The notes under the pieces: generated by a model
What the model was told of the DNA's origin: nothing
Database searches by the model: none
The model's input: the letters and a program-made list of their open reading frames with translations, nothing else
Assembly: GCA_947184155.2 (NCBI GenBank)
Contig: CAMXCT020001405.1
Location: forward strand, 62,001 to 126,000
Origin: Cladocopium goreaui
Taxonomy: Eukaryota; Sar; Dinophyceae; Suessiales; Symbiodiniaceae
Direction: 5' to 3'
Length of the DNA stretch: 64,000 bases
Made by a program: the position numbers and the translations under genes
Part shown: positions 10,827 to 60,628 of the stretch, one piece after another
Layout of the letters: every line of letters starts with the position of its first letter
Position numbering within the stretch: the first letter of the stretch is position 1

Positions 10827-13800
10827 TTACTTCCGATTAACTTGACCTTGCCAAACGAGAAACCAGACAGTCAAAGGTATTCCAGCAGATTGAAAAATCT
10901 CAGCACCTTCGAGAGTAGCCAAGAAAGAATCGCACAAAGCATATATCTTCAACCGGCAATTGGGAGGCACTATTGACAAGTACTGGAAAGAGGAAATTTC
11001 TTGAATGTAAATTTCCATCACTCTCTGATTGATCCAACGTCCACGTCGTCTAGTGAACTCGCTGTCTTCTGTTTGTTGTAAAATCCAAGTTGCCCCACCC
11101 GGGCGTAGCGACCCCAAATCGAGGGTTTTACCATTCATCCGCAAAGACTGAATCCCAAGTTCGCAGAGAAGAACTCTAAAACGAGAGCGCAGTGTTTGAG
11201 CAGATTTTGGCCAAAGCTTTTGCCACGGTTGTAAATGAGCAAATGCCAGGTGAACAACTCGAAGAAGATCCGGAATATCTAATTTTGCACTTTGATGTCT
11301 CGCTGCAGTAAACCTCGTCTTGGGCTCCCGCAATGCCAACAGTGCGAACCTGTTTGTGAAGTTGGTGTCCACAGGCAGTAACAAGTCACGACGAGTTGCT
11401 GAAAGGAACTCCCCTACTCTCAGTAGCGCACCCCAAGACAGAGCAAGCATCCCTGCCATATCCAGCCAGCCCCAGAAAAGACATGTTGAAATTGCCCCAA
11501 GTAAAATCTGCCATGGCATTGCAATATGGTGTACCGAAGGTTCATCTCTTTGCCAAGCGAAAGCTAAATTCCAAGCCTCCTGTAGTTGCCGTCTCACCAC
11601 GGGCTTCAAAGATGCTACAGCATTAACCGTCTCAGCGTAATGGTTGTAGGGCCTTCCTGAAGCATAAAGAGCACGGCCGTATCTGACCAAATTCTTATTA
11701 AGCTCATCGATGCGTGTGAAATGTTGTTCCAGCATATCATCCAGAGAAACCCCCAAAGAAGAAAGCCAGGACCTGAATTGCTCCAAATGCGAGACCCGGT
11801 GCTGAGATGTAATCCCCAAAACGGGTCTACCTTCAGGAAGTGGAGGTCTTTGATTTCGTAGACTCAGTCGTTGTAGATCTCCAGCATTTCGCGGAACCAG
11901 TACGCCATGAGTGAAACGTAAAACACAACACATCATAAAACAAAAAGCCCGGAACCAAAGCAGACCATGGCAAGTGAGGTGAGGAGGACCTTCGCCTGGG
12001 TAACCCAAGGTTGAATCAAATTCCATGGACAGGGGGATGGATTCCAACCCAGCAGGGACAGAGGCAACATTGTGCAGACCATAGGGAAAAGGAGGGACAC
12101 GGTACTTTGAACGATCCGTAAGATCAAGACCAGCAGGCCCCAAAAGGCAAAGAACCAACCTGACCCAATTTGAGGCCCACCTACGCAACTTTGGAAGGGA
12201 AGCCAGGCGATAGAAATCCAAGCGATCCCAAGCGGCAAAGTCCATGCCCGGGATGGAGCCCCGCAATTCCACTTCCCTAGTTGGGTCATCAGCAGGATTA
12301 TAACGAGTAGGACAAAAGCCAAAGACAATGTAGAGGCCACCAACGATCGACAAAACAGCGAGCTTTCTGAGGGCCTTCGAAAGAGCACGGGAAGAGGACC
12401 GACCTTTGGATGCAGCGCACTTTATGACATTAGAATCCACCAGGATAACAATCCGCTTGCTGATTCCTTTGGCAACAAGACGACCAACCAGACGAACAAC
12501 AGCCTCAAGTTCAAGCAAATTGATATGGGCAGAAATCCTAAAATTCCAAACCGCATCACACGACCAGGTGCTGGAAAGTGCAAGCTCGTTGATCAGCTGG
12601 CTTTCAAGGCCCAAAACCTCATCTGGCACCAGCTCTCTTTCGAATTCTGCCAACCTAAAAATCCCCTTTTCCATGACATTTGCAAGCGCCTCGGCTAGGT
12701 CACTCACATAGATGGCAGATTTCTTAGTCAGGGCTCCTTGTACGGGCACATGAGTATGCCCTCCAGAGCAACGCAAAGAGATAAAACTGGTATCAGCCCA
12801 GACGCACAGGAAAGCAAAAGCCTTTAAGTGAGGTGAACCATAAGCACATGAATCACATCGCACAAGCTCACACTCAGGATGGCCAAGGAGCTCCTCCCAT
12901 GGAGGAAGGTTTTTTATCATCGATGACCACGGGTTTTCCAAGACAACTGTGATCCCACACCTTGCACCAGCCTTCAAAATTTGAAATGCCCTATATCCAA
13001 GCAGTGTCCCAATCTGTGTCTGTGGGTCCTTTAGGTCAAACCCAAAAGGGAACCACTTTGATCGTAAGGGTGGCTTCCTCATGATGCTAAATGTTGTGCA
13101 GGGCGGCTCGACCATTACCGCTTTCACAAAATGGTTCATCACCGAATGCAGCAGCCAATCAAGCACATGCACTTTGGTCATGTCAAGCTCAGGATCGCGG
13201 CTCAAATCGATAGGACATCCCACGGAGAACCCTTTGGCGGCCATATGCGACGTGACAGTGGCGGCTCCAGCAAAGACCTCGATGAAATCAAACCTGAAAG
13301 CCAATGGGCGCTTCACTGCTTCATCAGCACGCATCTCTGTCTCTTCAAAATCCACACACCTAGAAAGGAGGCTTTGCACAGGCGATAGAAGCTTGGAATA
13401 GCCTCCTTTTGACCTACAGGCCCTCCAAAGTCCTTCCATGACATGAGGGTTGATCTCAGAGCTGACTATTGCCCCCTTCGCAAGTGATGCATCAGTAGCA
13501 AACAGCCGATCACAGAACCCTACCGCAATATCAGAGACACACAGGGGGGCAAGGATGCTAAGCAAGGTCAGCTCAGTAACAACAGGCCTAGACAGAGGTA
13601 CCAACTTCGGACTTGATGCATCAAAGGACAAAACATCAACCACATGAAAAGCTTTCTGCAAAATGGACATGAATGGCCTACGAAAAAGCAAAGTCGATGT
13701 CCATCCACCCAGCACACACAGGTGCAGCGCATCAGTTGTATGTGTAAGTTGGCAGAGCTGGAGGGTTATCCAAGACAGTGCATAGCGTTTTGCAGCAGGT

Positions 13801-15581
13801 GCAGCAACCATGACATGACCCCTATCTTGACAGCAGGGGGAGGCATCCACAGACGCACCAATTACCTTTGCCTTTCGGGCCCCACTCACATCCTTGTCAT
13901 CTGACCCTACAATACCAAGGTTTGCATAAACTTCCTTGCAGGATTTGAAACGCTCAACTGCTGGGTCAACAAGGATTCCAGGGCGGACCTTCGCAATGGC
14001 AAAATAGTCGTCTATCACCAAACCTTCACAGATGTCTTGGCCTCTAAAAGGCCGGCTGCTCTCAAGACGGCTCTCATCTTGCAAAAGGCCAACGGAACGT
14101 AGGATTCCTTCATGAGCACACGTGGCAATTTCGACCCCAGCATGATCACCTTGGAATATACTCTTAAACGAAGCCATGACAAATCCATCAGGGCATCGAG
14201 AAAAAGCTTGCCGACTGGAAAACCCCAAACCATCACCTCCTACCAAACGACTAGGTTTTTTGGCACTTCTTGCGGATGCAAAAGCTTTCAAAGCTTCAGT
14301 GTCACGCAACAATTCCAGGGGAATACGTGGCCCAACAGTGTTCGATCTAGTCCTATTGGCAGAGGTGGCAAATTGGTGATAGAAATCCTTCCTATCCGTA
14401 CAAACTATGGAGAGGGTTTCAAGCTTCGGATCCACGACAAAGTCTAAGAGGTCAGCGCCTGTCGGCAGGTTGGACGAGGGGCCAGCAACGCGCATCTCCA
14501 CTGCATTTCGACCTCGTCTGTCACCAATCTGTCTGTCACATTGGGCATTTTTTAGGCAGTTGAAGACACGAACCAGTTCATGTCTAGCACACTTCTGAAC
14601 ATCTATGTCATGAATATGCAGCAGTCCTCTGGCATCCCAAACTTTCGCCAACGCTACCACTTCTTCAACAGGGTCGAATTTTTGGGAATACTCAAAAGCT
14701 TTAGGAATCCTATCCAAAAGAAGAGCATCAGGGAAGCGATAGGCCATGCAAAGCTCTGGGGAAAGATAAGGTGTTGCGTCAAATGACCCCTCACCGACAA
14801 CCTTCAGACGGCTGGCATTCAGTGACCTATATGGCTCTAACTCTTCAAAAAGGCTATTGTCAAGTGGGACCTCATGCCCTGCAAAAGTCTTGTCATAGGC
14901 ACTGGCACCTGCTCCCAGTTTAGTGACAGCATCGGAAAGCTCAGAGAGTCTAGCAACTAATTGGGGAAAACGTCGACCACTCCTAAGAGTCTCAAAAGAC
15001 TCCCGGGGGCCGTCAGCCAGCATCAGGCTTGCCAACCTGCGAAAGATCCGCTGTTGGTTTAGGGAGGGTGCCCTCTCCAGAAATTCCATGGGTATGAAAT
15101 TGCTACCTGACCACCAATAGTTTAAGGCCATGACCAAGACATGGAGAGCACGTCTAAAATGGCACCTACGTCTCTTGGCTGCAGACAGACCTGGAGGCGT
15201 CTTTGCGAAAATGCCTGGAAACGGCAGCGGCAAAGGAAATGCTGGCGATGACGAAGCCACCAAACTTCGTTCCAAGTGCAAAGTGGCACGGAGAAAAATC
15301 GAAAACGGCGTTCTGGTGCGCAGCACAGAGGTCGTCAAGAAAGAACACCACTTAGCAAAGGAAAGAGTGTCCAAATCTGTGCTCAAATGAATTCCGGGAA
15401 CTTTGACGTTTGAATGAGATCCACAAAACTTGCAAGGGGACCCATCACAAACCTGTGCTTTACAACTAGGGCAGCTACCTAAGTTACTCTTATTTAAAAG
15501 TCCACCTTTAATTAGTTTATGGGGTCTGCCCTTAACAACTTTGGGTTCCAAGACTGACCCGGACCTGTGGTCCTGACTCAT
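10827..15581 (-). CDS. Element 1 pol: RT, split RNase H with nested methyltransferase-like domain, tyrosine recombinase
   Basis: Open for 1584 residues. I start it at the ATG of an ATGA overlap with the gag stop (15581-15578), although the frame is open further upstream. Order: a cysteine cluster (C37, C40, C45, C50, C53; CPSC and CKFC) suggesting zinc binding; reverse transcriptase with a DRKDFYHQF segment near 396 and a VIDDY catalytic box near 522; RNase H first strand LFATDAS with D697; a domain at about 763-960 with IEVFAGAATVT, VEPPCTTFS and VLENPW, the motif I, IV and VI signatures of cytosine-C5 methyltransferases; then the rest of RNase H (HINLLELEAV with E1024, ILVDSN with D1049, NPADDPTRE); and a tyrosine recombinase at about 1360-1530 (LLRVGEFL, SLRPGGAT, GRW, Y1525). 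The usual recombinase His before LR is Ser. It would copy element RNA and insert the circular product. Confidence 0.9.
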   Translation of the reverse strand: MSQDHRSGSVLEPKVVKGRPHKLIKGGLLNKSNLGSCPSCKAQVCDGSPCKFCGSHSNVKVPGIHLSTDLDTLSFAKWCSFLTTSVLRTRTPFSIFLRATLHLERSLVASSSPAFPLPLPFPGIFAKTPPGLSAAKRRRCHFRRALHVLVMALNYWWSGSNFIPMEFLERAPSLNQQRIFRRLASLMLADGPRESFETLRSGRRFPQLVARLSELSDAVTKLGAGASAYDKTFAGHEVPLDNSLFEELEPYRSLNASRLKVVGEGSFDATPYLSPELCMAYRFPDALLLDRIPKAFEYSQKFDPVEEVVALAKVWDARGLLHIHDIDVQKCARHELVRVFNCLKNAQCDRQIGDRRGRNAVEMRVAGPSSNLPTGADLLDFVVDPKLETLSIVCTDRKDFYHQFATSANRTRSNTVGPRIPLELLRDTEALKAFASARSAKKPSRLVGGDGLGFSSRQAFSRCPDGFVMASFKSIFQGDHAGVEIATCAHEGILRSVGLLQDESRLESSRPFRGQDICEGLVIDDYFAIAKVRPGILVDPAVERFKSCKEVYANLGIVGSDDKDVSGARKAKVIGASVDASPCCQDRGHVMVAAPAAKRYALSWITLQLCQLTHTTDALHLCVLGGWTSTLLFRRPFMSILQKAFHVVDVLSFDASSPKLVPLSRPVVTELTLLSILAPLCVSDIAVGFCDRLFATDASLAKGAIVSSEINPHVMEGLWRACRSKGGYSKLLSPVQSLLSRCVDFEETEMRADEAVKRPLAFRFDFIEVFAGAATVTSHMAAKGFSVGCPIDLSRDPELDMTKVHVLDWLLHSVMNHFVKAVMVEPPCTTFSIMRKPPLRSKWFPFGFDLKDPQTQIGTLLGYRAFQILKAGARCGITVVLENPWSSMIKNLPPWEELLGHPECELVRCDSCAYGSPHLKAFAFLCVWADTSFISLRCSGGHTHVPVQGALTKKSAIYVSDLAEALANVMEKGIFRLAEFERELVPDEVLGLESQLINELALSSTWSCDAVWNFRISAHINLLELEAVVRLVGRLVAKGISKRIVILVDSNVIKCAASKGRSSSRALSKALRKLAVLSIVGGLYIVFGFCPTRYNPADDPTREVELRGSIPGMDFAAWDRLDFYRLASLPKLRRWASNWVRLVLCLLGPAGLDLTDRSKYRVPPFPYGLHNVASVPAGLESIPLSMEFDSTLGYPGEGPPHLTCHGLLWFRAFCFMMCCVLRFTHGVLVPRNAGDLQRLSLRNQRPPLPEGRPVLGITSQHRVSHLEQFRSWLSSLGVSLDDMLEQHFTRIDELNKNLVRYGRALYASGRPYNHYAETVNAVASLKPVVRRQLQEAWNLAFAWQRDEPSVHHIAMPWQILLGAISTCLFWGWLDMAGMLALSWGALLRVGEFLSATRRDLLLPVDTNFTNRFALLALREPKTRFTAARHQSAKLDIPDLLRVVHLAFAHLQPWQKLWPKSAQTLRSRFRVLLCELGIQSLRMNGKTLDLGSLRPGGATWILQQTEDSEFTRRRGRWINQRVMEIYIQEISSFQYLSIVPPNCRLKIYALCDSFLATLEGAEIFQSAGIPLTVWFLVWQGQVNRK

Positions 15582-17256
15582 GCATCGGGTGTGGACTTGG
15601 CCTTTGGCCGCTTTGGGAACCTTGGCTTTCTCCTCGGGGAGGGCTCCTCTTCCGGACCTTCTGAGGGAGCGGCTGGCAACGCAGGCGGGGGAGCTTTTCC
15701 TGCCCTTTTCGATGTCTCGTTCTTCTTCGTTGCAAGGACCTCTAGATCCTTCAGGTACTGTAAGCAAACTGCCATCCACTGAGGTGGGACAAGTGGCCCG
15801 AACGGACGCGCATTGTGCAGCAGGTTGTTGGTCCTTTCCTGGAAAACTTGCAATGGGGGCTCCTCCAACAGCCAGAGCATATAGGCCAGAGACCAATCTC
15901 CTCGATCTACCACTGATTGCTCCAGGGATACCATCAACAGAGCAAGAACTTCCTTCGTGCGGTTGAAGTCTCCGCTCGAAGCAGCGTCCAACGCATGACC
16001 CACAATCCAGGCCAAAAGACCCATCTCTCTCTCTGATTCTTGTAGCCTCCTTGTCTTTCGAGATACAACAGAATGGACAACTGCTGAAGTTCTGCTTCCG
16101 TCTGAGGGACAGGTTTGGCCGGGTGCAACTTCCGGTGCAACTGCTGCATCATCTGCACATAAAAGGAGCTGTTTCCCATGGCAAGATCGCTTTGCATCTT
16201 CTCTCTTCTGTGCACGCCTTTGGTGGTACTCGAATGAGGACCTACGGCCGTCAGATCTCCTAAAACATCGCCTGACTGGGAGGCAAGGTGCGCAACCAGC
16301 GTAGTGATTGCGCTGCTCTGTCTTGCTATGGCCAAGGCGATATTCCCAGCCTCCTCTGAACTTGGTTGAAGTGCATCGTAAGGCTCGTCCTGCCCCACAT
16401 CTGGAACAGCTACCTGCGGGACCCCCGACTTCACTTTGGGAGGGGGTCCTACCAGGTTGAGTGCCTCTGCAACTACTGAAGGCTGAGGCATCCCAAGCTT
16501 TGGCAGACCTGCAGATACCGGGGGCAACTTGGGCGTAGGGCCAACAAAAAGACCTGAAACATCTGCGGCAGATGAAGAAGCAGCTTTCTCCAAGTGGTCC
16601 TGACGCTGAGAGAGCAGCACCATCTGAGCTGACAAGGCCGTCAACTGGTCTGCAATCATCGTGTTTGTAACCCTCTTGGCTGTCGCATTCTTTTTCCCAG
16701 GATTCACAGTAGGGGCGGCTGGCACAGGCGTCTTTGGGACAGTACTCTGGTCTTCTTGAGCAGTGTAAAAACCTGTCCTTTCATCCGATCTTTGCACCAA
16801 CCACTCTTTTACTAGGGATAGCAAAACTGGAGCATCTGGGAGGCTTTGAGGGAAGTCTAGTGAAAACCCAAGAATGCTTGCCAAGCTGTCTGTCACTGGA
16901 TCATACTCTCGGCAATACGGCAAAATGCCGTCACTGACATCGACCACCAAAACAGGCGCCTCAACGCCCAGAGCAACTGTAGCTGTAAGATCTTCAGTCT
17001 CCTCAACGAGACCAACCGAAAAAACCGAATTCGGGCCAATCATAGCATCATCTGTGGCATCTTGACCCTCATCAAGAGTGGGCTGCAAGAAAGTATCATG
17101 CGGTAAGGCAAGGAGCATTCCACCTTGTCTCAATTCAATTGCTAAAGCATACACGTCTACTGCATCCCCTACCGATGAGATCTCCACAGGAACTGTGAAG
17201 ACCAACAAGGAAGGGTCCCCTTTGCTTGCAGGCTTTATGCGGTGCTTTTCGAGCAT
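15578..17256 (-). CDS. Element 1 gag-like ORF, interrupted by one frameshift
   Basis: Two reading frames that belong together: 17256-15934 and 16024-15578. The join lies in a GAGAGAGAG tract near 16027; with one GA unit more or fewer the protein would run through from the segment KNQRE into MGLLAWIVGHALD without a stop. This is either a microsatellite-type mutation or a frameshift site. The N-terminal third is acidic, the middle is rich in Pro and Ala, and the C-terminal part is helical and ends in a basic Pro/Lys tail (RRKPRFPKRPKAK), suitable for nucleic-acid binding. No canonical CCHC knuckle is present. Gag identity is inferred from position between the 5' end and pol; the protein would form the retrotransposon particle. 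The start overlaps the end of ORF A by 22 bases, and the stop overlaps the pol start as ATGA. Confidence 0.7.
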
Positions 17257-17891
17257 GGTTCAAAGAGGGGCGGGACTTGGATCCTACCTCCTTGGCAAAA
17301 AACTTGCAACTCGGTTTCGGTCTGGAAACCGTGGGCAATCAGACCTCCTTCAAACGATTGATCTCTGAACCTCTGAAAATGCTCAGCTGAGGCAAAACGC
17401 ACAGGTCCACTGAGGCCCACAGCTCGCAGAACAAGGAAGTGCTCCGCAGGCGATGATATGTCACGAGGACAAAGAGGCTCTGCCAGGAAACACTCAAGAG
17501 CAGCCCGAGCGAAAAAACCAGCACTGTAGCACAAATGGATTCTTTGCAATGCGTCCTTCTGATCCCAAGACACAAAACCTGCTTGGTCCAGCACGAGTTG
17601 AGGAATGGTCCCTGGGCCACTTTCGACTCCGTCAAAGTCTTTTCCAATGAACTCAGGACCTGCTTCTTCGACCAAATTCCAAGTCTGAGCAATGACTGGG
17701 AGAGCAGGAAAGACAGTCCTAACCTGAGGCGCACTAATTGCAGCGGCTCTAGCCTTTGGATCTCCTCTCTTGTAACCCTGGCCAGAAGAGCTTGATGCCT
17801 GCTCCTGTTCTACTTGCCTTTTCCAAACCTCTAGCTTCTTTAGCTTATTGATTACTTCAGAAATCTCAGAGGCAGTGAGCGGACAGCTCAT
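17235..17891 (-). CDS. Element 1 ORF A, unknown function
   Basis: A 218-residue ORF starting at an ATG at 17891, shortly downstream of the 5' repeat. Not recognised. Residues 1-35 look like a short charged helix (VINKLKKLEVWKRQVEQEQ), followed by a Ser/Gly linker and a mixed domain with several Cys. It ends inside the gag start (22-base overlap), so gag could be reached by reinitiation. There is no transmembrane segment, unlike the first ORF of element 2. Confidence 0.65.
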   Translation of the reverse strand: MSCPLTASEISEVINKLKKLEVWKRQVEQEQASSSSGQGYKRGDPKARAAAISAPQVRTVFPALPVIAQTWNLVEEAGPEFIGKDFDGVESGPGTIPQLVLDQAGFVSWDQKDALQRIHLCYSAGFFARAALECFLAEPLCPRDISSPAEHFLVLRAVGLSGPVRFASAEHFQRFRDQSFEGGLIAHGFQTETELQVFCQGGRIQVPPLFEPCSKSTA

Positions 17892-18146: not shown

Positions 18147-18196
18147 ATGACTTGAGCAGCAAGTTAACGGCAGTCACAATCGAACTTAATGTTCCA
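18147..18196 (-). repeat. Element 1 split direct repeat A (5' end)
   Basis: Fifty bases identical to 10654-10703, forming the 5' terminus of the element next to a TACATACATACA tract. Confidence 0.92.
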
Positions 18197-29619: not shown

Positions 29620-29890
29620 TTGATTCACTCTTCGTTCCACCATCCCAGGATCCATACAAGCATACCACGGACAGCGGTCTGTTTTGTTCTGCTCATTGAA
29701 GGTGTCAGTCATCCAACGCACACACAGGAATGCTAGCATCCATTCGAAGTGGCACAGGCTTGTCACAACAAAAGGTGATCCACTGAGATTCATTGGTACA
29801 TCGCAAAGGCAATGAAGTGATCCACTCAACAAAAGGTGATCCACTGAGATTCATTGGTACATCGCAAAGGCAATGAAGTGATCCACTCCA
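29620..29890 (-). repeat. Element 2 repeat B' with internal 61-bp duplication
   Basis: Copy of B (29989-30198) starting TTGATTCACTCTTCGTTCC. Unlike B it carries a tandem duplication of 61 bp (29767-29827 and 29828-29888), beginning AACAAAAGGTGATCC. Confidence 0.9.
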
Positions 29891-29915: not shown

Positions 29916-29988
29916 TTGCTCTTGAGTGTACATCAGGTGATGCATGGGGATTTTATCACTCATGTGAACAAATGACGCAAGCTTGGAA
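29916..29988 (-). repeat. Element 2 repeat A'
   Basis: Seventy-three bases identical by eye to 36248-36320, starting TTGCTCTTGAGTGTACATCA and ending GCTTGGAA, directly abutting repeat B. Confidence 0.92.
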
Positions 29989-30198
29989 TTGATTCACTCT
30001 TCGTTCCACCATCCCAGGATCCATACAAGCATACCACGGACAGCGGTCTGTTTTGTTCTGCTCAGTGAAGGTGTCAGTCATCCAACGAACACACAGGAAT
30101 GCTAGCATCCATTCGAAGTGGCACAGGCTTGTCTCAACAAAAGGTGATCCACTGAGATTCATTGGTACATCGCAAAGGCAATGAAGTGATCCACTCCA
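29989..30198 (-). repeat. Element 2 repeat B
   Basis: Internal copy of the 3' repeat, ending just 13 bp before the recombinase stop codon at 30212. Confidence 0.9.
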
Positions 30199-30211: not shown

Positions 30212-31489
30212 CTAAAGGGTTCTGGCGTCAGCCCATCTACTTCTCAAGATACTTGACAGAGCCCGGTGAAGTGGCTCTTCTGTATATTTATCAAAGAATC
30301 TGGGCAACCTAGAAGCTTCCATCAACAAGCGGCCAGGCTTTCGATATCGGTTCACTGACTGAGTTGCAGTCCAACGCCCTCGTGTCTGTATTGTTTCAAA
30401 GGTGCGATGTTGGTGAATGATATCAAAGGATGGACCAGAATGCCGGATCACATGTGGTGTGAACAGGCCGGACCGTATCCCAAACTGTTTTGAAAACCGT
30501 CTGAAGAGTTCTTCATACTGATGCAGGCTAAGTGAAAAAACCGAAGCTTGTGGTTCAGTCATGCAGCGGTACAAAAACTTAAGGAGATCATTGCACCAAG
30601 GACGATGTGGTGAGTCCGCCAAAACCACATCATCCGTTGCGCCAGTCTTAGTCACTGAGCCAAAGTCTGCATTTCCAAAGAGCACTCCATATGGGGTTCC
30701 AAACGCCTGGACAGCTTTGACGATATCACCAAACTTCATACCTAGGCTTTCCGAGGGTCGCGCAAACAAATCATATTGAACCAGCACCGCAAGGCTAGCC
30801 TGGATTTCACCGAGTACGGCACAAAAGTCAGCAAAGTGATAAATCACCTGGGGCACCATTCCAACCCGTGAGCTGCCAGCCCGATTGGATCTCCAAGCAC
30901 CCAGGCTGGCGCGGGATAAGGGCAGGCATTGTCTCTCAGGCACTGAGGGCACCAGCTTAAGCAGTAGGTATCCAAAGAGTGTGTAACTAGCAACTGTCAT
31001 AGCAGCACCATCTTCGAAAAGTTCATCAAAAAAGATGCTCATCGAACGATCAGCCAGTTTCTCAGTCTTACAGCTCCTACGCTTCTGTTTGCACCAAGCA
31101 AGAAATTCATCTACTGACTCTGCATATCTAAGAACTGTGCAAGTGCGAATTCTTCTGACTCGAAGCCGCCGTTCAGGACGGACAGAAGCCAGGATCTTCT
31201 GAAATCTAGAGTCCTTCTCTGTGGCGCTGGTCTTTGTTCTGGAGCGCCTTCCAGGCTTCTTTTTGATTTCTACCAAGGGCGATTGCATCGAGGAAGGTTG
31301 TGAGCCCCCCCTGCTGCTTGAGGAGGTTGCACATGTCTGCTGAGCAACACTCCTCTTCACCACCCCGAGTCTTGACAGCTTTTGAGGACGGTTCACGTGC
31401 AAAGGTTTGCTTGCCCTGTTTCGGGACAAGACCCCTGAGCGCAGTTCCCCAACAGTCTTGGACAACTCTGCACGCCGCTGGATCACCAT
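30212..31489 (-). CDS. Element 2 tyrosine recombinase
   Basis: About 425 residues from the first ATG at 31489. The N-terminal 100 residues are basic and Ser-rich. A core-binding helical region follows (RYAESVDEFLAWCKQKRR). The catalytic domain shows LFARPSESLG with the first Arg, HVIRHSGPS as the His-x-x-Arg box, GRW, and a Tyr in SVNRYRKPG. All expected catalytic residues appear present. The enzyme would integrate the circular cDNA of the element without making a target duplication. It is preceded by a linker ORF in another frame, so it may be made by frameshift or reinitiation, or the upstream frame may be broken. Confidence 0.88.
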   Translation of the reverse strand: MVIQRRAELSKTVGELRSGVLSRNRASKPLHVNRPQKLSRLGVVKRSVAQQTCATSSSSRGGSQPSSMQSPLVEIKKKPGRRSRTKTSATEKDSRFQKILASVRPERRLRVRRIRTCTVLRYAESVDEFLAWCKQKRRSCKTEKLADRSMSIFFDELFEDGAAMTVASYTLFGYLLLKLVPSVPERQCLPLSRASLGAWRSNRAGSSRVGMVPQVIYHFADFCAVLGEIQASLAVLVQYDLFARPSESLGMKFGDIVKAVQAFGTPYGVLFGNADFGSVTKTGATDDVVLADSPHRPWCNDLLKFLYRCMTEPQASVFSLSLHQYEELFRRFSKQFGIRSGLFTPHVIRHSGPSFDIIHQHRTFETIQTRGRWTATQSVNRYRKPGRLLMEASRLPRFFDKYTEEPLHRALSSILRSRWADARTL

Positions 31490-31736
31490 GGGCAACTCTC
31501 AGGTTACTAAGCACGCATGCGTATGTTTGACAAAGCTGTTCTGGGTAAACACCTGCAAGTTCTGTTTTATTAACATATTTACCAGCATTAGGGCCAGCCT
31601 CTGCCCTCACTCGTCCTTTGAGCCAGACTGCATGCCTGCGGTGCGCGCAGTGCTTCTCCAGCTGCTGGAGGCTAAAGCATGAGGTTATCATTTTGGTGTT
31701 TTTTTTTGAAAGCTTCCCCATAGCTACACATATCAA
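31206..31736 (-). CDS. Element 2 linker ORF after the methyltransferase-like domain
   Basis: Continues the methyltransferase-like ORF after a frame change in an A9 tract near 31704: GAAFKK-type sequence in one frame passes to TKMITSCFSLQQLEKHC in the next. It contains a Cys/His-containing segment (HCAHRRHAVWLKGRVR) and KTELAGVYPEQLCQ, resembling the C-terminal part of the corresponding domain in element 1. It overlaps the start of the recombinase ORF. The A9 tract may be a slippage site or a one-base mutation. Confidence 0.6.
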   Translation of the reverse strand: MICVAMGKLSKKNTKMITSCFSLQQLEKHCAHRRHAVWLKGRVRAEAGPNAGKYVNKTELAGVYPEQLCQTYACVLSNLRVAHGDPAACRVVQDCWGTALRGLVPKQGKQTFAREPSSKAVKTRGGEEECCSADMCNLLKQQGGLTTFLDAIALGRNQKEAWKALQNKDQRHREGL

Positions 31737-32451
31737 AAGTTACTGTATATGACACACCAGTCGCTATAGCCTTAACAAGTGGTATGAAAGAAAACAATTT
31801 TGATGAGGCTGGGTTTTCGATCGCATAAGGAATCTGAAACTTATTGCAGGTCCGGATTACTTCGGCCGAGAAGAGAGCAAGTTCAACTCCAGCCGCCTCT
31901 TTGGCATAGGTGGCTGGTGAATCTCGGACTCCTCTGCGGGCCCATGACCAGATTTTGCAAGGTGTTCCAAGGTGAACAAAACCTATGATTCCTTTTTCAA
32001 TCCACTTGATGATGAGTCTTTGCGTCTTTCTGCGACGGAGGTCACAATGAACACCATTCTTGATCTCAATCGGTTCAAGGCATGGTATATTGTGTTGTGC
32101 CACCGCATGTGTGAGATTTGCCGATCCTGCAAACAGTTCAAGGAAAAACTTACAAGCACTGGAGGGAATTGCATCAACATGAGTCGGTATGTCAGCCTGC
32201 TTGCTCGAATGGCTAGGCGTGGATCGCCCACTGCTGGCTGGCACCTCGACCCTAGGTGGTTGCAACCTCACTCCCCGATGCCTACGTTCTGGGATTCGGC
32301 TCGGCTCATCTGCCACATTTCTCTTGGTTTCAACGTGTCGGATGTGACAAGTGATGCCACATCCAAACTGGATGGCAGCTGCCGTCTGGCATAGCCGGTT
32401 CATCTTAAAGCTGGAAGATCTACCCTTAGATAAGCAACTAACCGTAGCCAA
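31672..32451 (-). CDS. Element 2 RNase H C-terminal part and methyltransferase-like domain
   Basis: Opens in the middle of RNase H: SDNLATVS supplies the third acidic residue, then KGRSSS and HVETKRNVADEPSR complete that domain. Downstream lies a domain with FLELFAGSANLT (motif I), VHLGTPCKIWS (motif IV with the Pro-Cys pair) and YAIENPASS (motif VI), the signature of cytosine-C5 DNA methyltransferases, at about residues 95-255. The frame differs by one base from the preceding RT ORF, and the shift must occur just after the TAA near 32470. Whether the domain is catalytic cannot be told; motif X and the full target-recognition region are not evident. Confidence 0.8.
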   Translation of the reverse strand: MATVSCLSKGRSSSFKMNRLCQTAAAIQFGCGITCHIRHVETKRNVADEPSRIPERRHRGVRLQPPRVEVPASSGRSTPSHSSKQADIPTHVDAIPSSACKFFLELFAGSANLTHAVAQHNIPCLEPIEIKNGVHCDLRRRKTQRLIIKWIEKGIIGFVHLGTPCKIWSWARRGVRDSPATYAKEAAGVELALFSAEVIRTCNKFQIPYAIENPASSKLFSFIPLVKAIATGVSYTVTFDMCSYGEAFKKKHQNDNLML

Positions 32452-34637
32452 GTTATCACTCTGAGGGTTAACTTACGACATCCCATGATCTCCCTAACCC
32501 TTGAAGCCCTGCGCAGCGACGACACGGCAACACGGCATTCCTTCTGATTGATGTGCTCGGACACATCTCTCCATCTTCTGGCCCACAGCAACCTGAAGTT
32601 CGAGGGGTCTGCAAAGAATGGGTCTACAGGTTCAACTAAGGAGGGGATATCAACATCAACTCTCTTATGGGGCTTAGCTCGCAGTTGGGACCTAATGGCA
32701 GAAGTTGCTAACCAGCTACCCTGCTTAAATGAGTCAACCACCCACTGGGCATACTGCGAATCGTGGAATGCTGGTTTAACGAATGGCTCACTGCATTGGT
32801 GACTCAACTGTTGCAAGTCAGCGAGAGCGTCCGAAAAACGTTGGGCATCGTGATCCCGGGCAGCCTGTTTCAAAGTTTCAGGCATGGGGATGAACCGCCA
32901 TTTCTCATGCACAGACATGGCAGCTTTGATGCGGGGTTTACCAGGGTCACAAGTCATCATGGCATACCCCGAGCTGGACGAGTCCCCAACATCGACCAGC
33001 CGACAATATGACGCCCCTAGTTCCCGCCATGTCATCCAGATTAGTGAACAGGCCATCTTGAGCTCATGGCGAACACATGGCCAAACACGAACACGTTTAT
33101 GCTGACTGATTTCAATAAAGCGATACAGATGCTGCAAAACCGACAGACCCCATGGTGTGTGACTACAAAGGGAAGTGTAGTGCCCCGCCCAAACCTGCAA
33201 CACACGGCCATGCAGCTTATTCCGTCTAAGAAGCCCAAGGGTGGCAAAGTAAAACTTCCAAAGCCGTTTGGGTTTGTTACACAGTCGCTTCTTGGAGAAG
33301 TCGAGAACACACCCAACACTCTCTAAGGATTGCACTGGCTCGGACTGGGTCCACGTGATCGGTATATCGGCTTGCTTGAATGCAGCTTCCAACGCCTGGG
33401 CACGCTGCGCGACATGTTCTTTGGACCTGCCAACAATCGTGATATTGTCTACGTATACGCCAAGGCAGGTGGAATAATCACACAGCTGGGGGGTACTTTT
33501 CTTTTCTCTAAAAACTCCATCATTCCAAGGACTAAAGGATCTGGAAATTGTCAGAACTGCTTCGTTGCAGAGAAAAAGCGCCCAAGACCAACCCATGGGG
33601 ACCGCTTCAATGCAAGGATACAGGAAACAATCAGGATCAACCTTACTATAACCTCTAGTGTTAGGGTCAAACACGGATGCAGCATCAACCCCACAAGATT
33701 CCCATTGTGCACGAGTGAGGGGGTGATTCAAAGCAAAATAATGGGTGAGCTCGGGGATGGCAAAGTTATAGAAGGCGTCATTGACATCAGCCTCAATGCC
33801 CCAACCTTCCCCGGGCCCCAAATTTTCTAAGTCTAAATCCCCGTAACATCTAGCAGATCCTAATCGGGTCACAGGGGGAGATTGATGCAGCCGGTTGGTT
33901 CCCCGGCAATCCAGAACCATCCTAATGGCATTAGGGTCTTTCTTCTTAACAAAGAATGCACCGATGAAGCTACGAGGTGTCCTACGCAAACTGACGAGGC
34001 CAACCCGATGCAGCTTCAAGATGAAATCAAGTCGGCGTTTTGGATCAAACCTAAGTGCTGGATCCCAATACGGCTGAAAGGCTTCGCTCTCAGCCGCCTC
34101 AGGCAAAAGAATCTGGCTCTCGAAATGCTCAACAAGCTTGGCAGCTTCTGGGGGCAAAAATCGAACAATCTTCTTAGGCTTTATCTGGGACTTCAGCACT
34201 TTAAGCTTATCAGGATCATATGCAGCAAGATTGTTGGGCGTTCCGTCATAGGAGATTTCCGCCGTCTGTAGTTCCCTGAGAGCACTCTCAGGGGAGGTGT
34301 CAGCAGGAGGCAAACCGCTCATCCTAAGTGATTCGCAGATCCTATCTGTAACAAACTCCTGAACTACATTTGACGTCCGGTCTGAGCTCAAAACTGGAAA
34401 ATGTTGCGAATTTGCATCATGCGAGGCGAGACGGTTCAGGCTGTTGCAGATCCATTGAGCTCGCCGAGGTTCAAAAACGTTGGCATCCCTACAAAAATCC
34501 CTCACAGCCTCAGCATTCAAAGGGAAAGGGTCACCATGCCTTCTTTGCTCACGAAGGCGATCAACGCACCCCTGATGGCCAGCATGATCATGACCCCCGA
34601 GGTGCAGGGAGTCACGCTGGCGGGAAGGCGCAGTCAT
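32400..34637 (-). CDS. Element 2 reverse transcriptase and RNase H N-terminal part
   Basis: A 745-residue ORF starting at an ATG in an ATGA overlap with the gag stop (34637-34634). RT motifs: IEADVNDAFYNFAIPEL (motif A with Asp), VPMGWSWALFLCNEAV (motif B), and GVYVDNITIVG (motif C, with Asp-Asn instead of Asp-Asp). RNase H begins at VDVGDSSSSGYAMM and continues, after a linker of about 120 residues, to EHINQKECRVAVSSLRRASR; the rest lies in the next frame. The Asp-Asn active site also occurs in some active retroelements, so it is not proof of death. Confidence 0.88.
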   Translation of the reverse strand: MTAPSRQRDSLHLGGHDHAGHQGCVDRLREQRRHGDPFPLNAEAVRDFCRDANVFEPRRAQWICNSLNRLASHDANSQHFPVLSSDRTSNVVQEFVTDRICESLRMSGLPPADTSPESALRELQTAEISYDGTPNNLAAYDPDKLKVLKSQIKPKKIVRFLPPEAAKLVEHFESQILLPEAAESEAFQPYWDPALRFDPKRRLDFILKLHRVGLVSLRRTPRSFIGAFFVKKKDPNAIRMVLDCRGTNRLHQSPPVTRLGSARCYGDLDLENLGPGEGWGIEADVNDAFYNFAIPELTHYFALNHPLTRAQWESCGVDAASVFDPNTRGYSKVDPDCFLYPCIEAVPMGWSWALFLCNEAVLTISRSFSPWNDGVFREKKSTPQLCDYSTCLGVYVDNITIVGRSKEHVAQRAQALEAAFKQADIPITWTQSEPVQSLESVGCVLDFSKKRLCNKPKRLWKFYFATLGLLRRNKLHGRVLQVWAGHYTSLCSHTPWGLSVLQHLYRFIEISQHKRVRVWPCVRHELKMACSLIWMTWRELGASYCRLVDVGDSSSSGYAMMTCDPGKPRIKAAMSVHEKWRFIPMPETLKQAARDHDAQRFSDALADLQQLSHQCSEPFVKPAFHDSQYAQWVVDSFKQGSWLATSAIRSQLRAKPHKRVDVDIPSLVEPVDPFFADPSNFRLLWARRWRDVSEHINQKECRVAVSSLRRASRVREIMGCRKLTLRVITWLRLVAYLRVDLPALR

Positions 34638-35794: not shown

Positions 35795-36219
35795 CACGGC
35801 TTACCCTTTCCAAATGTAGATGGCTTGGCAGGCCCAACGCGGCCCGGGATTACAGCAACTGCCTGACGATCTCCCTCCAGAGAAACAGTAGCCTCCTCTT
35901 TGACACTAAGAAACTTGCCGCCCTTGTCACACTTCAGCTGCTGAATCCACCAGGCCCCAAACACCAATATCAAAAGGATACAAATCACCAACCAGCACAG
36001 ACAACTATTAGCCCACTTAAGCCAGTATGCAGATGATTCACACGCCTCAAGCACCTCGTTGTAGCCAGAAATCAGGTCCCGAGCACGGTGCACCTCCACC
36101 CTTAAGGTGGCAATGTCAGATTGCAAGGCAGACAACTCAGCTCGGTCACTCTCCCAGAAAATGGATCTGAAGATGTGAGATCCCAAGATGATCCCCCACC
36201 ACACCGACGGCTCCACCAT
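35794..36219 (-). CDS. Element 2 small membrane ORF
   Basis: A 141-residue ORF from an ATG at 36219, directly inside the 5' repeat. It shows a helical region likely to be coiled coil (ELSALQSDIATLRVEVHRAR), then a strongly hydrophobic segment (LCWLVICILLILVFGAWWI), then a basic, Lys/Gly-rich cytosolic-type tail. No signal peptide, no Cys-rich ectodomain and no resemblance to viral envelope proteins. It is coupled to gag by TGATG. Function unknown; it could tether particles to a membrane. Such an ORF is not part of the standard YR retrotransposon gene set. Confidence 0.7.
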   Translation of the reverse strand: MVEPSVWWGIILGSHIFRSIFWESDRAELSALQSDIATLRVEVHRARDLISGYNEVLEACESSAYWLKWANSCLCWLVICILLILVFGAWWIQQLKCDKGGKFLSVKEEATVSLEGDRQAVAVIPGRVGPAKPSTFGKGKP

Positions 36220-36247: not shown

Positions 36248-36320
36248 TTGCTCTTGAGTGTACATCAGGTGATGCATGGGGATTTTATCACTCATGTGAA
36301 CAAATGACGCAAGCTTGGAA
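36248..36320 (-). repeat. Element 2 repeat A (5' end)
   Basis: Identical by eye to 29916-29988 and ends GCTTGGAA at a TATATATATA tract. The first ORF starts 29 bp inside it. Confidence 0.92.
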
Positions 36321-40663: not shown

Positions 40664-40765
40664 TTAATGTGAGAAACCCAATGCCATAAACATACCATTT
40701 GGGGATGATGGTTGTCCATTTAAATTGGTGATTTTTGGGATTTATGATTGGCTGTACCACATTAT
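40664..40765. mobile_element. Family M3 inverted-repeat element
   Basis: Begins TTAATGTGAGAAACCCAATG and ends TGGCTGTACCACATTA; carries CAATGCCATAAACATACC. Non-coding. Confidence 0.6.
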
Positions 40766-41739: not shown

Positions 41740-42135
41740 CTATATATATATACACGTATTATGTATATATGTATATATATATATGTATATATATGTGTGT
41801 GTGTATGTACGTATTCTGTATATATTATATATTTTGTTATAATATTATTTTATATGTTATTGTATTATAATATATTATATTATATTTTAATGTATTATAT
41901 TATATTTTATTATATTATATTATATTTAATTGTATTATAATATATTATATTATATTACATTATATTATATTATATTATTGTATTATATTATATTATATTA
42001 TATTATACTACATTAAATTATATTGTATTATATTATATTATATCATATTATATTATATCATATTATATTATATCATATTATATTATGTTATATTATATTA
42101 TATCATATCATATTATATATATATAAATACATTGT
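41740..42135. repeat. AT-rich microsatellite cluster (ATTAT)n
   Basis: TATATA and TATG tracts pass into several hundred bases of TATTATATTATA-type pentamers and heptamers. No gene. Confidence 0.93.
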
Positions 42136-57230: not shown

Positions 57231-57312
57231 TTATTCCTTCAACGACGTTCGCAGCTTGAAGATACACACTGTTTTAACGGTGGGACTGACTCAAATTGCA
57301 GCCAGCCGTGTT
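57231..57312 (-). repeat. Element 3 repeat B'
   Basis: Starts TTATTCCTTCAACGACGTTC and ends CAGCCAGCCGTGTT. It differs from 57498-57579 by a single visible base (GCTTGA versus GCTTGC). Confidence 0.88.
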
Positions 57313-57497: not shown

Positions 57498-57579
57498 TTA
57501 TTCCTTCAACGACGTTCGCAGCTTGCAGATACACACTGTTTTAACGGTGGGACTGACTCAAATTGCAGCCAGCCGTGTT
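57498..57579 (-). repeat. Element 3 repeat B, overlapping the pol C-terminus
   Basis: Internal copy of B'. The RT-RNase H ORF runs into it and stops at 57541, so the last 13 codons are encoded by repeat sequence. Confidence 0.88.
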
Positions 57580-59562
57580 CCCCATTTTGCAAACCATGGC
57601 TGCTAGAATTTGTTCCAAAGAAATTGAAGCGAAAGTTGAAATATCCTCAAAACCCAAAGCATTCAACTGATGGATGTCTCCTCTCGACGGGGCGTCTGCA
57701 ATGTTGCTATACGAGCTCACTCTCGCAATCCAACAGCTTGTCTTCATTAAGACCTCTTGCTCGGCAAAAATCTGCGCAAGAACATTCACTGTATCATTTT
57801 CAGAAGTACCACGAATCAAACTGAACTTCGTGCCCTCGTTGTCAACGTGAAGAAAGGCTTTCTTATTGCCCAAGCTTTGTACCCAAATCAAATGTGCCAA
57901 AACCGCACACAAAGTCTCTGCTTCAAAAATGATCTGTTTTTTCGAAAGTTCTCCAAGCAATTGTCTCTGAATCTCATTCAACTCACAAGAGAAAAATTGT
58001 TTCTTTCCACCAGTCGGATCCACAAAAACTGCTCCAAGTCCGCATTGTAAAGACCTGGACTCACGCTCATAACAAGCATCTGTGATGATGACAACGTGCT
58101 CCAAGGACTCCTGCAGTATCAACCTAGGTTCATCTGACTCAAGCAATTGCACAAACAATTTCAAGAAGGTTGCATCAGCTTGGCAGATTTTGGAGCGACG
58201 CCTGGATGCAAAATCCCTCAACGCTCGAGTGCACCTCTTACCAGTGCGGCCAAAAACTTGGGCATCAGCAAACTGCATCCTTCCTCGTAATTTCTGCGCT
58301 TCAACCTGTGATATCCAACCCTTTTCCAGAATACGCTCGATTTCTGCTTTGATCTCCTCAATTCTGGATTTTGTGTTGTAAACTTTTGCAATTCCACTCC
58401 AAGATTCTGAAAGGTCCAGAATGACTCCAAGCGCTTCACACTGTGCACTGAAAGGCATGCACTTACGACCCTCTTGCGCAAAAAGCCACCCAAGGAGATT
58501 GAAGAGGGCAGCAACAGAGAGTTCAGTGTTCTTGGCAAGAGGCGGTGTTGAAAACACTATATAGTCATCGAAGAAGGAGGACCAAGGTAGGGAACAACCC
58601 ACTGTCCCCAGCCACCAAATTGCACGTGCAAGACGAAGAAAAGAATGCACACTACGAATCGCTCCGAAAGGCAAAACCAACACCTGAAATAATGCCCAAC
58701 GTCCAGTGACCGGGTTAAAAACCCTAATATAGGCCACACTGCGTCCTTCTGAGTTTAATGCAATTTGTCTGTATGCACTGGACAAATCAAACGTCCTGAC
58801 GACCAGTTCCTTCTCAAATCCAAGTCGGGCAGCTTCAGTGAAAAACTTTGAAATCAAGGCACAAGCAACATCAATGGTGTGAAGGATCGGAGTCTCTGAA
58901 ACCGTCACTGCTTGATTCACCGACGACTCCGAAAAATCATCTATTAAACGAATTTTATGTTTCTGTCTCAAACCAACTCTGCGAGAGATAGGGGCATCAT
59001 TTGGCACTTCATCGTCTTCCAGAGGTCCCCTCAGCCAACCACGCTCGCATTCCTCTAAAGTCTGTCTCCAGACCTCTTCATCAATCTCATTGTCACCTGA
59101 ACTGCAGGGCTCGGACATCACCTGTAGTCTGCGCATCTGAGACTGCAACTTCAGAGATTCCAGTGTAGTGACAGCCGGGGTGAACTTGAATGGCAACATG
59201 CTGATAGCTGGCACTTCACCTACAAGAGAGGACCCCATACGCAACTCATCAACTACTCCAACATCTGGGTAACCATAATGCTCAAGCATCTCTTTGAACA
59301 GTAGGATTTTCTTCCCTCGCACCGCTTTCTCAACTGCCGGGTCCATGTCTCGGCGCATGTCCAGTTCAGCTTGACACAACTCTTTTGCGCGACTATTCCA
59401 CTTCTTAAAGAAAAACAACCTTTGCTTTGACAGTTCCAACGGGTTGCACGTCAGCATGCGTTCAACTGCTTTTGCCAATTCCAACGGTAAAGCATCTTGC
59501 AACCCCACAGGGTGTTTGATTTTCAAGGCTTGATCCAAAAATTCTGTTGGTTCCCATTGCAA
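57541..59562 (-). CDS. Element 3 reverse transcriptase and RNase H
   Basis: About 670 residues. RT motif A is RTFDLSSAYRQIAL, motif B is LVLPFGAIRSVHSFLR, and motif C is SSFFDDYIVFST with an intact Asp-Asp pair. A thumb/connection-like region follows (AQKLRGRMQFADAQVFGR), then RNase H with VVIITDACYE, FEAETLCAVLAH, FLHVDNEGTKF and SNIADAPSRGD, so all four acidic positions appear present. There is no clean start codon: the frame enters from the methyltransferase-like ORF by a +1 shift near 59565, where AGT TTT TGG becomes AGT TTT (T) GGG. A one-base mutation is the alternative. Confidence 0.9.
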   Translation of the reverse strand: MQWEPTEFLDQALKIKHPVGLQDALPLELAKAVERMLTCNPLELSKQRLFFFKKWNSRAKELCQAELDMRRDMDPAVEKAVRGKKILLFKEMLEHYGYPDVGVVDELRMGSSLVGEVPAISMLPFKFTPAVTTLESLKLQSQMRRLQVMSEPCSSGDNEIDEEVWRQTLEECERGWLRGPLEDDEVPNDAPISRRVGLRQKHKIRLIDDFSESSVNQAVTVSETPILHTIDVACALISKFFTEAARLGFEKELVVRTFDLSSAYRQIALNSEGRSVAYIRVFNPVTGRWALFQVLVLPFGAIRSVHSFLRLARAIWWLGTVGCSLPWSSFFDDYIVFSTPPLAKNTELSVAALFNLLGWLFAQEGRKCMPFSAQCEALGVILDLSESWSGIAKVYNTKSRIEEIKAEIERILEKGWISQVEAQKLRGRMQFADAQVFGRTGKRCTRALRDFASRRRSKICQADATFLKLFVQLLESDEPRLILQESLEHVVIITDACYERESRSLQCGLGAVFVDPTGGKKQFFSCELNEIQRQLLGELSKKQIIFEAETLCAVLAHLIWVQSLGNKKAFLHVDNEGTKFSLIRGTSENDTVNVLAQIFAEQEVLMKTSCWIARVSSYSNIADAPSRGDIHQLNALGFEDISTFASISLEQILAAMVCKMGNTAGCNLSQSHR

Positions 59563-60628
59563 CCCAAAAACTCAAGGAAAAATCAACATGCCACACGTGC
59601 AACTCTTCAAGAATTCGTTTGCTCACTCCTTCCGCAATGTTACACTGCTTCACGCTCACTTCTTCCCCAAATTGAACTTCGTGAAGTTGTTTGGCCGCTG
59701 GGGGCACTGCAGTAGTCGGCCAAACAAGTTGCTGAGACTTCCAAAAAGTCACAAACCTGGATTTGTGAGCAGGAAACAAAGGTGGCAGCTTAAGCGTGGG
59801 TGTTTGCTGCAAGGTGGCTGCCTTGGCTCTATGTTGCAAAGAGGAGTGGCCCTGGAAAACAAGGCCTTGTTCCACAAATCTCAAAACAAAAGCATGGGCA
59901 ATAGCTTCGCAGAGCTGTTTCGGGTAGTGCACTTCCAGGGACGTTGCAAAAATTCGTTTGTTGCCACTTCGTATGACTCCCCACGGCAGGTGGGTGTGAT
60001 CTCCAGGACATGTATTGCAAATTGTGTGGACTTGTTCAAAATTAGCAGTAAGCCGCGTCCACTTTGGCCTTTGGGCACCATATACGCAAGCTTGATGATC
60101 TGAGATGTGATGATGCCCATTGCTGTCACATTCGGCCCACCATGTAGTCACCCAAAACAAACTGTTCCGAGGGTTCTCCACCATACATGCTTTTCCCAAC
60201 AAGGTGCAAAGATCCATGACCTCTGCTGTGAATTCATAAAGGACATTAGCTGCGCTTACACGTAGCATGTCAGTGCCAGAGAGTGTTGAAATACCGTTTG
60301 GTTCATCCAACGTACGCAAAGGCTTTGGTGCATTTTCTCCGGGCAGGTGTATCTGCCTGGCTGTACTGGCTGTACCACAAGGAGGCGCTAAATAAACTCC
60401 TTTCACTGCAGGATGTCTTATCCATTCCATGACAGTCAACTGATCCTCAGGTTTTGTCAAATCCAATGGGATGATACTCGCCAAAGAGCCATGTGACCGT
60501 ACTTTGTCAACAGCTATGGAGTTTTCGAATCCACACCTTTTAAAGGCTGCAGTCACGCCTGCTGTACCTGAAAAGAGCTCTAAGATGATTACATCCTGCT
60601 CTGTGAAACCTTCTAGGGGGGCCCCAAG
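59462..60628 (-). CDS. Element 3 methyltransferase-like domain, in frame with gag after a UGA
   Basis: Open from the codon after the gag UGA (60631-60629) without another stop. Motifs: IILELFSGTAGVTAAF (motif I), VYLAPPCGTAST (motif IV with Pro-Pro-Cys) and ACMVENPRNSLFW (motif VI), as in cytosine-C5 DNA methyltransferases. A His/Cys segment HTICNTCPGDHTHLPWG follows. There is no ATG near the beginning that would include motif I, which argues that translation arrives from gag by reading through UGA. The C-terminus (about 100 bp) overlaps the RT frame. Confidence 0.8.
   Translation of the reverse strand, partial: LGAPLEGFTEQDVIILELFSGTAGVTAAFKRCGFENSIAVDKVRSHGSLASIIPLDLTKPEDQLTVMEWIRHPAVKGVYLAPPCGTASTARQIHLPGENAPKPLRTLDEPNGISTLSGTDMLRVSAANVLYEFTAEVMDLCTLLGKACMVENPRNSLFWVTTWWAECDSNGHHHISDHQACVYGAQRPKWTRLTANFEQVHTICNTCPGDHTHLPWGVIRSGNKRIFATSLEVHYPKQLCEAIAHAFVLRFVEQGLVFQGHSSLQHRAKAATLQQTPTLKLPPLFPAHKSRFVTFWKSQQLVWPTTAVPPAAKQLHEVQFGEEVSVKQCNIAEGVSKRILEELHVWHVDFSLSFWVAMGTNRIFGSSLENQTPCGVARCFTVGIGKSS

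Follow-up and report, generated by a model that had tools for sequence, protein, structure and literature searches.

A compact cytosine-C5 methyltransferase-type domain at three positions in putative tyrosine-recombinase-type retrotransposons of Cladocopium goreaui

Three retrotransposons and the place of the methyltransferase domain

The stretch of DNA analysed here (the window) comprises 64,000 nucleotides from the dinoflagellate Cladocopium goreaui and corresponds to positions 62001-126000 of contig CAMXCT020001405.1, in an assembly (GCA_947184155.2) of 1.17 Gb. Three retroelements lie inside it, all on the minus strand, and each of them carries, together with reverse transcriptase (RT) and RNase H, a domain of the cytosine-C5 methyltransferase (MTase) type of about 220-248 amino acids. 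In element 1 this domain is nested in RNase H, in element 2 it follows RNase H and in element 3 it precedes RT (Table 1). An earlier note on this DNA had claimed one module at these three positions, and the homology found across the element families (here E1, E2, and E3) bears this out. All three domains of the note are present in the sequence, on the minus strand; the residues that it gave in element 1 (763-960 of pol) had been counted from another start and are 946-1177 in the present numbering.

The homology has been established at several levels. The E1 domain matches E2-family copies at best at 1.5e-15 and E3-family copies at best at 6e-11; the window copies match one another at 9.9e-5 (elements 1 and 2), 5e-7 (elements 1 and 3), and 0.016-0.036 (elements 2 and 3); and the profiles of the three MTase families match pairwise at 3.3e-30, 1.6e-20, and 5.1e-24. 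Because of these cross-family sequence and profile matches, the three domains are homologous and their common motifs more than chance.

Element 1 spans 18196 to 10493 and shows split direct repeats in the arrangement A-coding-B-A-B. Its gag frame is followed by a single pol frame with the order RT-RNase H[MTase]-RNase H-tyrosine recombinase (YR). Structure comparison with VIA-align puts the MTase between strands 2 and 3 of RNase H; RNase H was revealed by VIA-align alone and is not among the 50 Foldseek matches listed for the E1 model. This order was checked through a second E1 copy (L078, in which the B pair alone was found in the stretch covered) and through database proteins. The RNase H-MTase-RNase H stretch is covered to 100% by 7 of 70 database relatives, at 43-66% identity, and the relatives include protein P0259 of Prorocentrum cordatum. 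The nesting is a clear natural case of one enzyme placed in the loop of another.

Element 2 spans 36321 to 29620 with the same A-coding-B-A-B repeats, and its order is gag, RT-RNase H-MTase, and then an overlapping YR frame. In its sister copy L072 all four repeats are present and RT-RNase H-MTase form one frame of 1153 codons; in another copy, L073, the B pair alone was found in the stretch covered. The RNase H of element 2 (window 32400-34670) shows, by eye, an insertion of about 120 residues that separates its first strands from the HIN..E helix. Since this falls about where element 1 holds the MTase, the RNase H loop looks permissive for insertions.

Element 3 terminates at 57231 and its other end lies beyond the window edge. 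A YR frame is followed by gag, one in-frame TGA, and MTase-RT-RNase H. In copies L070 and L071 these last three domains form an uninterrupted frame of 1041-1042 codons (1042 in L070), and both copies show all four repeats, one A lying between the two B copies and the other upstream of YR. Immediately downstream of an E3-family copy (L071:8035-8862, contig C1408) there is an ankyrin-repeat-like frame. The stop between gag and MTase-RT-RNase H is TGA-C in the window and in all 22 readable junctions among 29 E3 loci (L010-L038), 20 of them being TGA CT and two TGA CA, with several loci near-copies of each other; the seven unscored loci either are cut or have an MTase frame that begins at another place. 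Some stop is expected at this place from the frame-cutting procedure, and the finding is the constant TGA-C identity. TGA CT is a readthrough-prone context, so that the Gag-MTase-RT-RNase H protein of the E3 family is probably made by stop-codon readthrough.

Among the three elements, profile support for YR is limited to element 2, whose copy L073 reaches 2.3e-5 and 24.7 bits with Pfam (just below the cut-off of 27.1 bits) and 2e-6 with a PHROG integrase family. Family scans (Pfam, PHROG) gave no match for the YR of element 1 and of element 3 (copy L071), and the label comes there from motifs read by eye and from the repeat layout. In self-BLAST no inverted repeat joins the ends of E1 or E2, which have split direct repeats instead and so lack the inverted terminal repeats of DIRS1 elements sensu stricto.

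The pol frames of elements 2 and 3 are broken in the window and the gag of element 1 is shortened; close copies with longer open frames are present elsewhere in the genome. The near-identity of the repeat pairs points to a fairly recent insertion of the elements. As lower bounds, with weaker matches that may belong to sister families, the E1 and E3 domains each match at least 150 genome places, and the E2 domain gives at least 159 matches, some of which are two pieces of a single place. The domain orders recur in these copies: among frames of at least 700 residues in the stored loci, the DD motif of RT follows the MTase in 16 of 17 of the E3 family, and the YVDN motif precedes it in 16 of 18 of the E2 family. 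Misassembly as the source of the three positions is therefore unlikely, the more so because the seven database relatives keep the arrangement of E1.

Elsewhere in the window, a long array of 12-nucleotide tandem repeats with open frames on both strands occupies about 1561-3600, and a short-unit array (steps of 10 and 15 nucleotides) lies at 39981-42118, with an inverted counterpart about 1.4 kb apart. An Rfam scan of the window gave zero matches at gathering thresholds.

Table 1. Features of the three elements (window positions; YR, tyrosine recombinase)
Feature	Positions	Strand	Remarks
Element 1 gag-like frame	15934..17259	-	441 codons, shortened; 559 in copy L078
Element 1 pol frame, RT-RNase H[MTase]-RNase H-YR	10827..16148	-	1773 codons stop to stop
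Element 1 RT region	13605..14864	-	GLVIDDY motif read by eye; no Pfam RT match
Element 1 first RNase H piece, strands 1-2	13455..13517	-	contains ...FATDASLAKGAIV...
Element 1 compact C5-MTase domain inside RNase H	12618..13313	-	pol-frame residues 946-1177; M.HhaI-matched core ~12633-13295
Element 1 second RNase H piece, strand 3 to end	12273..12566	-	...HINLLELEAV...DSNV...ADDPTR
Element 1 YR-like pol C-terminus	10947..11876	-	motif reading only
Element 1 repeat A, 5' copy	18147..18196	-	50/50 identical to 10654-10703
Element 1 repeat A, 3' copy	10654..10703	-	
Element 1 repeat B, first copy	10703..10820	-	
Element 1 repeat B, second copy	10493..10610	-	99% identical to first
Element 2 gag-like frame	34634..35800	-	
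Element 2 RT and first part of RNase H	32400..34670	-	RVT_1 6.5e-6, 26.4 bits, below 29.6-bit cut-off
Element 2 frame with RNase H end and MTase start	31672..32472	-	
Element 2 compact C5-MTase, N-terminal two thirds	31675..32163	-	ends at frame break
Element 2 MTase remainder, other frame	31482..31700	-	within open reading frame 31206-31739
Element 2 YR	30212..31498	-	Pfam 0.022
Element 2 repeat A, 5' copy	36248..36321	-	74/74 identical to 29916-29989
Element 2 repeat A, 3' copy	29916..29989	-	
Element 2 repeat B, first copy	29989..30196	-	
Element 2 repeat B, second copy	29620..29827	-	98.6% identical to first
Element 3 YR-like frame, upstream of gag	62392..63999	-	motif reading; continues past window
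Element 3 gag-like frame, Cys/His-rich end	60629..62062	-	
Element 3 in-frame TGA then C, between gag and MTase-RT-RNase H	60629..60631	-	
Element 3 compact C5-MTase, N-terminal to RT	59858..60601	-	
Element 3 RT and RNase H	57541..59571	-	RVT_1 0.011; separated from MTase by frame break here
Element 3 repeat B, first copy	57498..57579	-	
Element 3 repeat B, second copy	57231..57312	-	B copies 98.8% identical

Fold, motifs, and viral relatives of the domain

The predicted structure of the domain has a Rossmann-type C5 MTase fold, with M.HhaI as the structural best match. Conservation has been scored in two alignments: A1, with 31 rows (29 of the 50 complete E2 and E3 domain copies, near-duplicates being omitted, plus two window domains), and A4, with 44 E1-type rows. 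The catalytic Cys of motif IV is kept in 29/31 and 43/44 rows, respectively, and the Glu of motif VI in all rows of both. Other motifs depart from the classical ENV and QxRxR, and read ENP and YG..(R/K)K.T. An adenine-type MTase was ruled out by the fold comparison and the family scans: the Dam-type family of DIRS1 elements, PF05869, matches none of the 31 A1 members at E <= 1, and is absent from the nine families that they match in all at this threshold. Thus the proposal of the earlier note that the domain is of cytosine-C5 type and not Dam-like is supported by fold and family scans, and the non-Rossmann fold that would have spoken against it was not seen in the model.

PF00145, with a gathering cut-off of 22 bits, is matched by only 9 of the 31 A1 members at E <= 1 (best 0.0025, estimated at about 18 bits; the window E3 member scores 11.2 bits), and an NCBIfam scan matched no C5 family. 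On the other hand, 23 of the 31 match PHROG 757, named 'DNA methyltransferase', at E <= 0.1 (best 1.3e-6), and profile similarity to compact phage and archaeal-virus MTases of this kind ranges from 1.7e-14 to 7.6e-21. A scan of viral contigs yielded one relative among 16 pattern matches, a protein of 235 amino acids with the common motifs (L069). Searching a phage collection by tblastn gave zero matches with an E2-family domain, and with L069 it gave 23 phage and virus records, including Haloferax tailed virus 1, inoviruses, and Bacillus phage BM15, whose gp128 is annotated 'cytosine-C5 specific DNA methylase'. A database search with A1-type rows plus L069 (A3) returned 836 proteins, and many of the 120 listed are compact (200-235 amino acids) with PPC....S and ENP. 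The best structural matches in BFVD include proteins of Lactococcus phage P087 and Tetraselmis virus 1, of 212 and 218 amino acids. With a profile built from A1, in which there are no viral sequences, all 15 compact proteins tried (4 viral, 11 other) reached 35-72 bits, these having been found through L069 or A3 and hence pre-chosen for similarity; none of six classical C5 MTases (two of phage BM15, four of this genome) rose above 4.2 bits.

These data bear on the possibility that the domain is simply a divergent form of the DNA methyltransferase (DNMT) already published in Symbiodinium DIRS elements, SymbioDIRS-Dnmt3, and nothing new. Passages of de Mendoza et al. (2018; PMC5890265) describe the same kind of host, A-coding-B-A-B repeats, a DNMT in Pol, two domain orders, and a swapped order of YR and Pol. 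Moreover, some compact database relatives carry a PF00145 label, which puts both kinds in one broad superfamily. However, PF00145 was the profile used to find the domains in those passages, which belong to the Dnmt3 clade, whereas the domain described here matches PF00145 only weakly; the ENP and YG..(R/K)K.T motifs are not those of classical enzymes; and the A1 profile scores compact MTases but none of the classical DNMTs tried from this genome. The frames differ as well: the 125 PF00145 matches listed (123 of 2684 candidates scored) are in frames of 133 to 558 codons, whereas compact-domain matches lie in frames of up to 1173, 2773, and 3609 codons for the three query domains. We consider it unlikely that the domain is only a divergent SymbioDIRS-Dnmt3. 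As for the classical matches themselves, some of those listed, among which are L002-L008, may belong to published retrotransposon-borne DNMT families, and the DNA methylase locus L001 (contig C1) looks bacterial by its neighbouring frames and possibly stems from contamination or a symbiont contig.

Descent and transfer of the domain

Three families with one module at three positions could have arisen by transfer of the module or from one ancestral MTase-bearing YR element, in which the position was rearranged within Pol during descent. Consistent with a single ancestor, a tree of 72 rows groups the element-type domains in one clade and the compact viral-type ones in another (100/100). Within it, E1 forms one clade (100/99), E3 another (100/96), and E2 a third except for one database row inside; the branching order of the three is left unsettled. 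E1 and E2 both have YR after Pol and share an SKGRSSS stretch in RNase H, and over longer stretches their RTs are related at 2.4e-6, so these two might share the module by descent, which counts against independent acquisition in them.

The comparison of MTase with RT points in the other direction. It used matched windows of about 86 residues around MTase motif IV and the RT catalytic motif, and is limited by the stored loci, which hold RT only in part. Within families the two domains have diverged alike, with median identities (MTase/RT) of 0.40/0.40 in E1, 0.47/0.40 in E2, and 0.62/0.69 in E3. Between families, the median MTase scores are 38 (E1-E2), 53 (E1-E3), and 55 (E2-E3), and those of RT are 25, 25, and 22, against 21-22 for shuffled sequences. 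The MTase exceeded every shuffle in 50/176, 121/165, and 227/240 pairs, respectively, and RT in none. Profiles of the same windows gave 1.8e-9, 7.7e-10, and 6.2e-7 for the MTase and 0.15, 0.0031, and 0.26 for RT, while longer profiles (for RT from 15-18 sequences per family) gave 3e-30 to 2e-20 for the MTase and, beside the value for E1-E2 cited above, 0.14 (E1-E3) and 0.13 (E2-E3) for RT. Profiles of RT and YR built from few sequences showed no signal, and an RT1-MT1 match in the longer-profile run is an artefact of the RT cut-out overlapping the MTase.

Because the MTases are more similar between families than the RTs while divergence within families is alike, these data are a strong hint of lateral transfer of the MTase between element families, and the repeated capture or relocation proposed in the earlier note has gained support. 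Read most simply, the data imply that the module moved at least once, perhaps more often, between E3 and the lineages of E1 and E2; E3 has, in addition, another order of open reading frames and an RT barely related to those of the others. Descent from one ancestral element without transfer is accordingly less probable, although it is the least unlikely of the alternatives considered here.

Purifying selection has been estimated as the ratio of non-synonymous to synonymous substitution rates (dN/dS) in the E3 and E2 families, pairs outside a dS of 0.02-1.5 being dropped. The median in the E3 family is 0.06 (9 of 210 pairs usable), in agreement with the selected value that had been proposed for the domain.

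Possible role and comparison with known systems

The explanation that we favour, and hold to be somewhat more likely than not, is that a virus-type mini C5 MTase has been acquired by YR retrotransposons more than once and probably methylates the cDNA of the element. Each element would be a tyrosine-recombinase-type retrotransposon with split direct repeats and a Pol containing a compact C5 MTase of the phage/archaeal-virus kind. The module would have entered two or more element lineages that had already separated, or been handed from one to another, and settled at a place specific to each: a surface loop of RNase H in E1, the RNase H-YR boundary in E2, and the gag-RT boundary in E3. As a part of Pol beside RT and RNase H, the MTase would be carried with the reverse-transcription complex, and the double-stranded cDNA or circular form would be methylated prior to integration by YR. 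New copies might then resemble the methylated DNA of the host, or gain protection from nucleases or deaminases. Within this explanation, it is likely that the domain is an active methyltransferase; whether its substrate is the cDNA of the element or the circular integration form, for which its being a part of Pol argues, could go either way.

Several observations weigh against this explanation. Foldseek gives modest TM-scores with PDB structures, the 29 best lying at 0.36-0.46 by query length. The only two usable E2 pairs of 120 gave a dN/dS of 0.35, both at a dS of 1.5. CpG observed/expected values in the elements (0.56-0.60) are only slightly below that in the 36.5 kb rest of the window (0.67), and thus give no clear footprint of self-methylation. 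The catalytic Cys is lost in two of the 31 A1 members (L049 and L063), and the Asn of motif VI is kept in just 12 of the 44 E1-type rows. In addition, no conventional target-recognition domain is apparent in the roughly 220-248 amino acids, and a short Cys/His stretch lies at the place where one would be expected. Two invariant Cys (C172 and C198 in E3 domain numbering) and a nearby His are seen in alignments A1 and A4, and could form a metal site replacing the target-recognition domain.

The substitutions at motif VI have been considered in relation to a loss of catalysis, after which the domain would serve Pol in a structural role or in binding nucleic acids. In the other 32 E1-type rows the Asn is swapped for K, T, A, R, or Q, and PMC3537659 reports a DIRS1-type class with an inactive adenine MTase. 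Nevertheless, the catalytic Cys and Glu are nearly invariant and constraint in the E3 family is strong, which makes such a loss quite improbable, the least probable of the alternatives; the loss of the Asn with Cys and Glu in place is a hint of altered chemistry or substrate in the E1-type clade.

A different substrate is the subject of another alternative, in which RNA (element RNA or the tRNA primer) and not cDNA would be methylated in a DNMT2-like manner. PDB sequence searches with the E3 MTase frame and the E1 pol gave zero matches, and the best PDB profile match is DNMT2 (2.5e-4, profile positions 5-73 only). Since DNMT2 is an RNA methyltransferase, RNA is a possible substrate, which also weighs against the favoured explanation; the lack of a conventional DNA recognition domain fits it, as do the neighbouring RT and RNase H, which handle RNA. 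By contrast, the annotation of the viral relatives is that of DNA methyltransferases, with DNA replication genes (MCM, PCNA, DNA polymerase) nearby in three of the four records examined, and M.HhaI is the structural best match, although neither point shows the substrate. We regard methylation of RNA as improbable, to about the same degree as a merely divergent SymbioDIRS-Dnmt3.

With the favoured explanation of a captured virus-type MTase, a comparison of three related enzymes, each in its own context, becomes possible, so that the reason for which these elements carry a methyltransferase becomes testable. The retrotransposon MTases described in the passages cited were detected with PF00145 or Dam profiles. 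A large lineage that stays under the PF00145 cut-off, occupies three places in Pol, and gives each query well over a hundred matches in a single genome would make MTase capture by YR elements commoner and add a third, viral-type source. A more tentative possibility, which we think somewhat doubtful, is that the viral mini C5 MTase is a mobile accessory module handed among independent YR lineages, placed at various permissive points of Pol (even within a loop of RNase H), and cryptic in many 'DNMT-less' DIRS-like elements; passages of PMC5890265 state that some DIRS elements lack DNMTs. If this were true, YR retrotransposition would almost generally require methylation of the cDNA, by an adenine, Dnmt3, or compact enzyme.

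MTase-bearing YR retrotransposons are known as a kind of thing. Dam-type adenine MTases in other DIRS elements are described in PMC3783388, and the earlier note had given the known domains as usually Dam-like. Dam-like domains are not the only ones known, as passages of PMC5890265 report cytosine DNMTs in dinoflagellate DIRS elements, which come in two architectures with a shuffled order of YR and Pol, were acquired independently, and are under purifying selection, and put forward the idea of self-methylation; a passage of PMC12344493 mentions DNMT3 members in retrotransposons, citing de Mendoza et al. No report of the compact domain in retrotransposons was found in searches of open-licence articles of PubMed Central (PMC), subscription papers and preprints lying outside this scope. 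As far as these searches go, the enzyme lineage, the sub-threshold PF00145 score, the nesting in RNase H, and the third position are new.

By the passages cited, SymbioDIRS-Dnmt3 resembles the present elements in having a C5 MTase in the Pol of dinoflagellate DIRS-like YR elements, A-coding-B-A-B repeats, more than one domain order, and a swapped order of YR and Pol; it is set apart by its description, its domain being PF00145-detectable and of the Dnmt3 clade, whereas the present one is compact, sub-threshold, and found at three positions. DIRS1-type elements with a Dam-like MTase (PF05869) also hold it in Pol, and element 2 has the same RT-RNase H-MTase order, but their MTase is of the adenine type, as described in PMC3783388, and the present elements have split direct repeats in place of inverted terminal ones. 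SymbioLINE-Dnmt and the classical C5 MTases have the C5 fold and catalytic logic in common with the compact domain and, in published cases, retroelement hosts; those of this genome (L001-L008) are nonetheless full-size, with ENV/QxRxR/GN-type motifs. Finally, the compact phage and archaeal-virus MTases (PHROG 757; Haloferax tailed virus 1 gp60, BM15 gp128) are like the element domains in size, motif order, PPC....S, ENP, C.YG, and a conserved Cys/His near the end; they are, however, free-standing genes in the separate clade described above, while the element MTase is a domain of a retrotransposon Pol.

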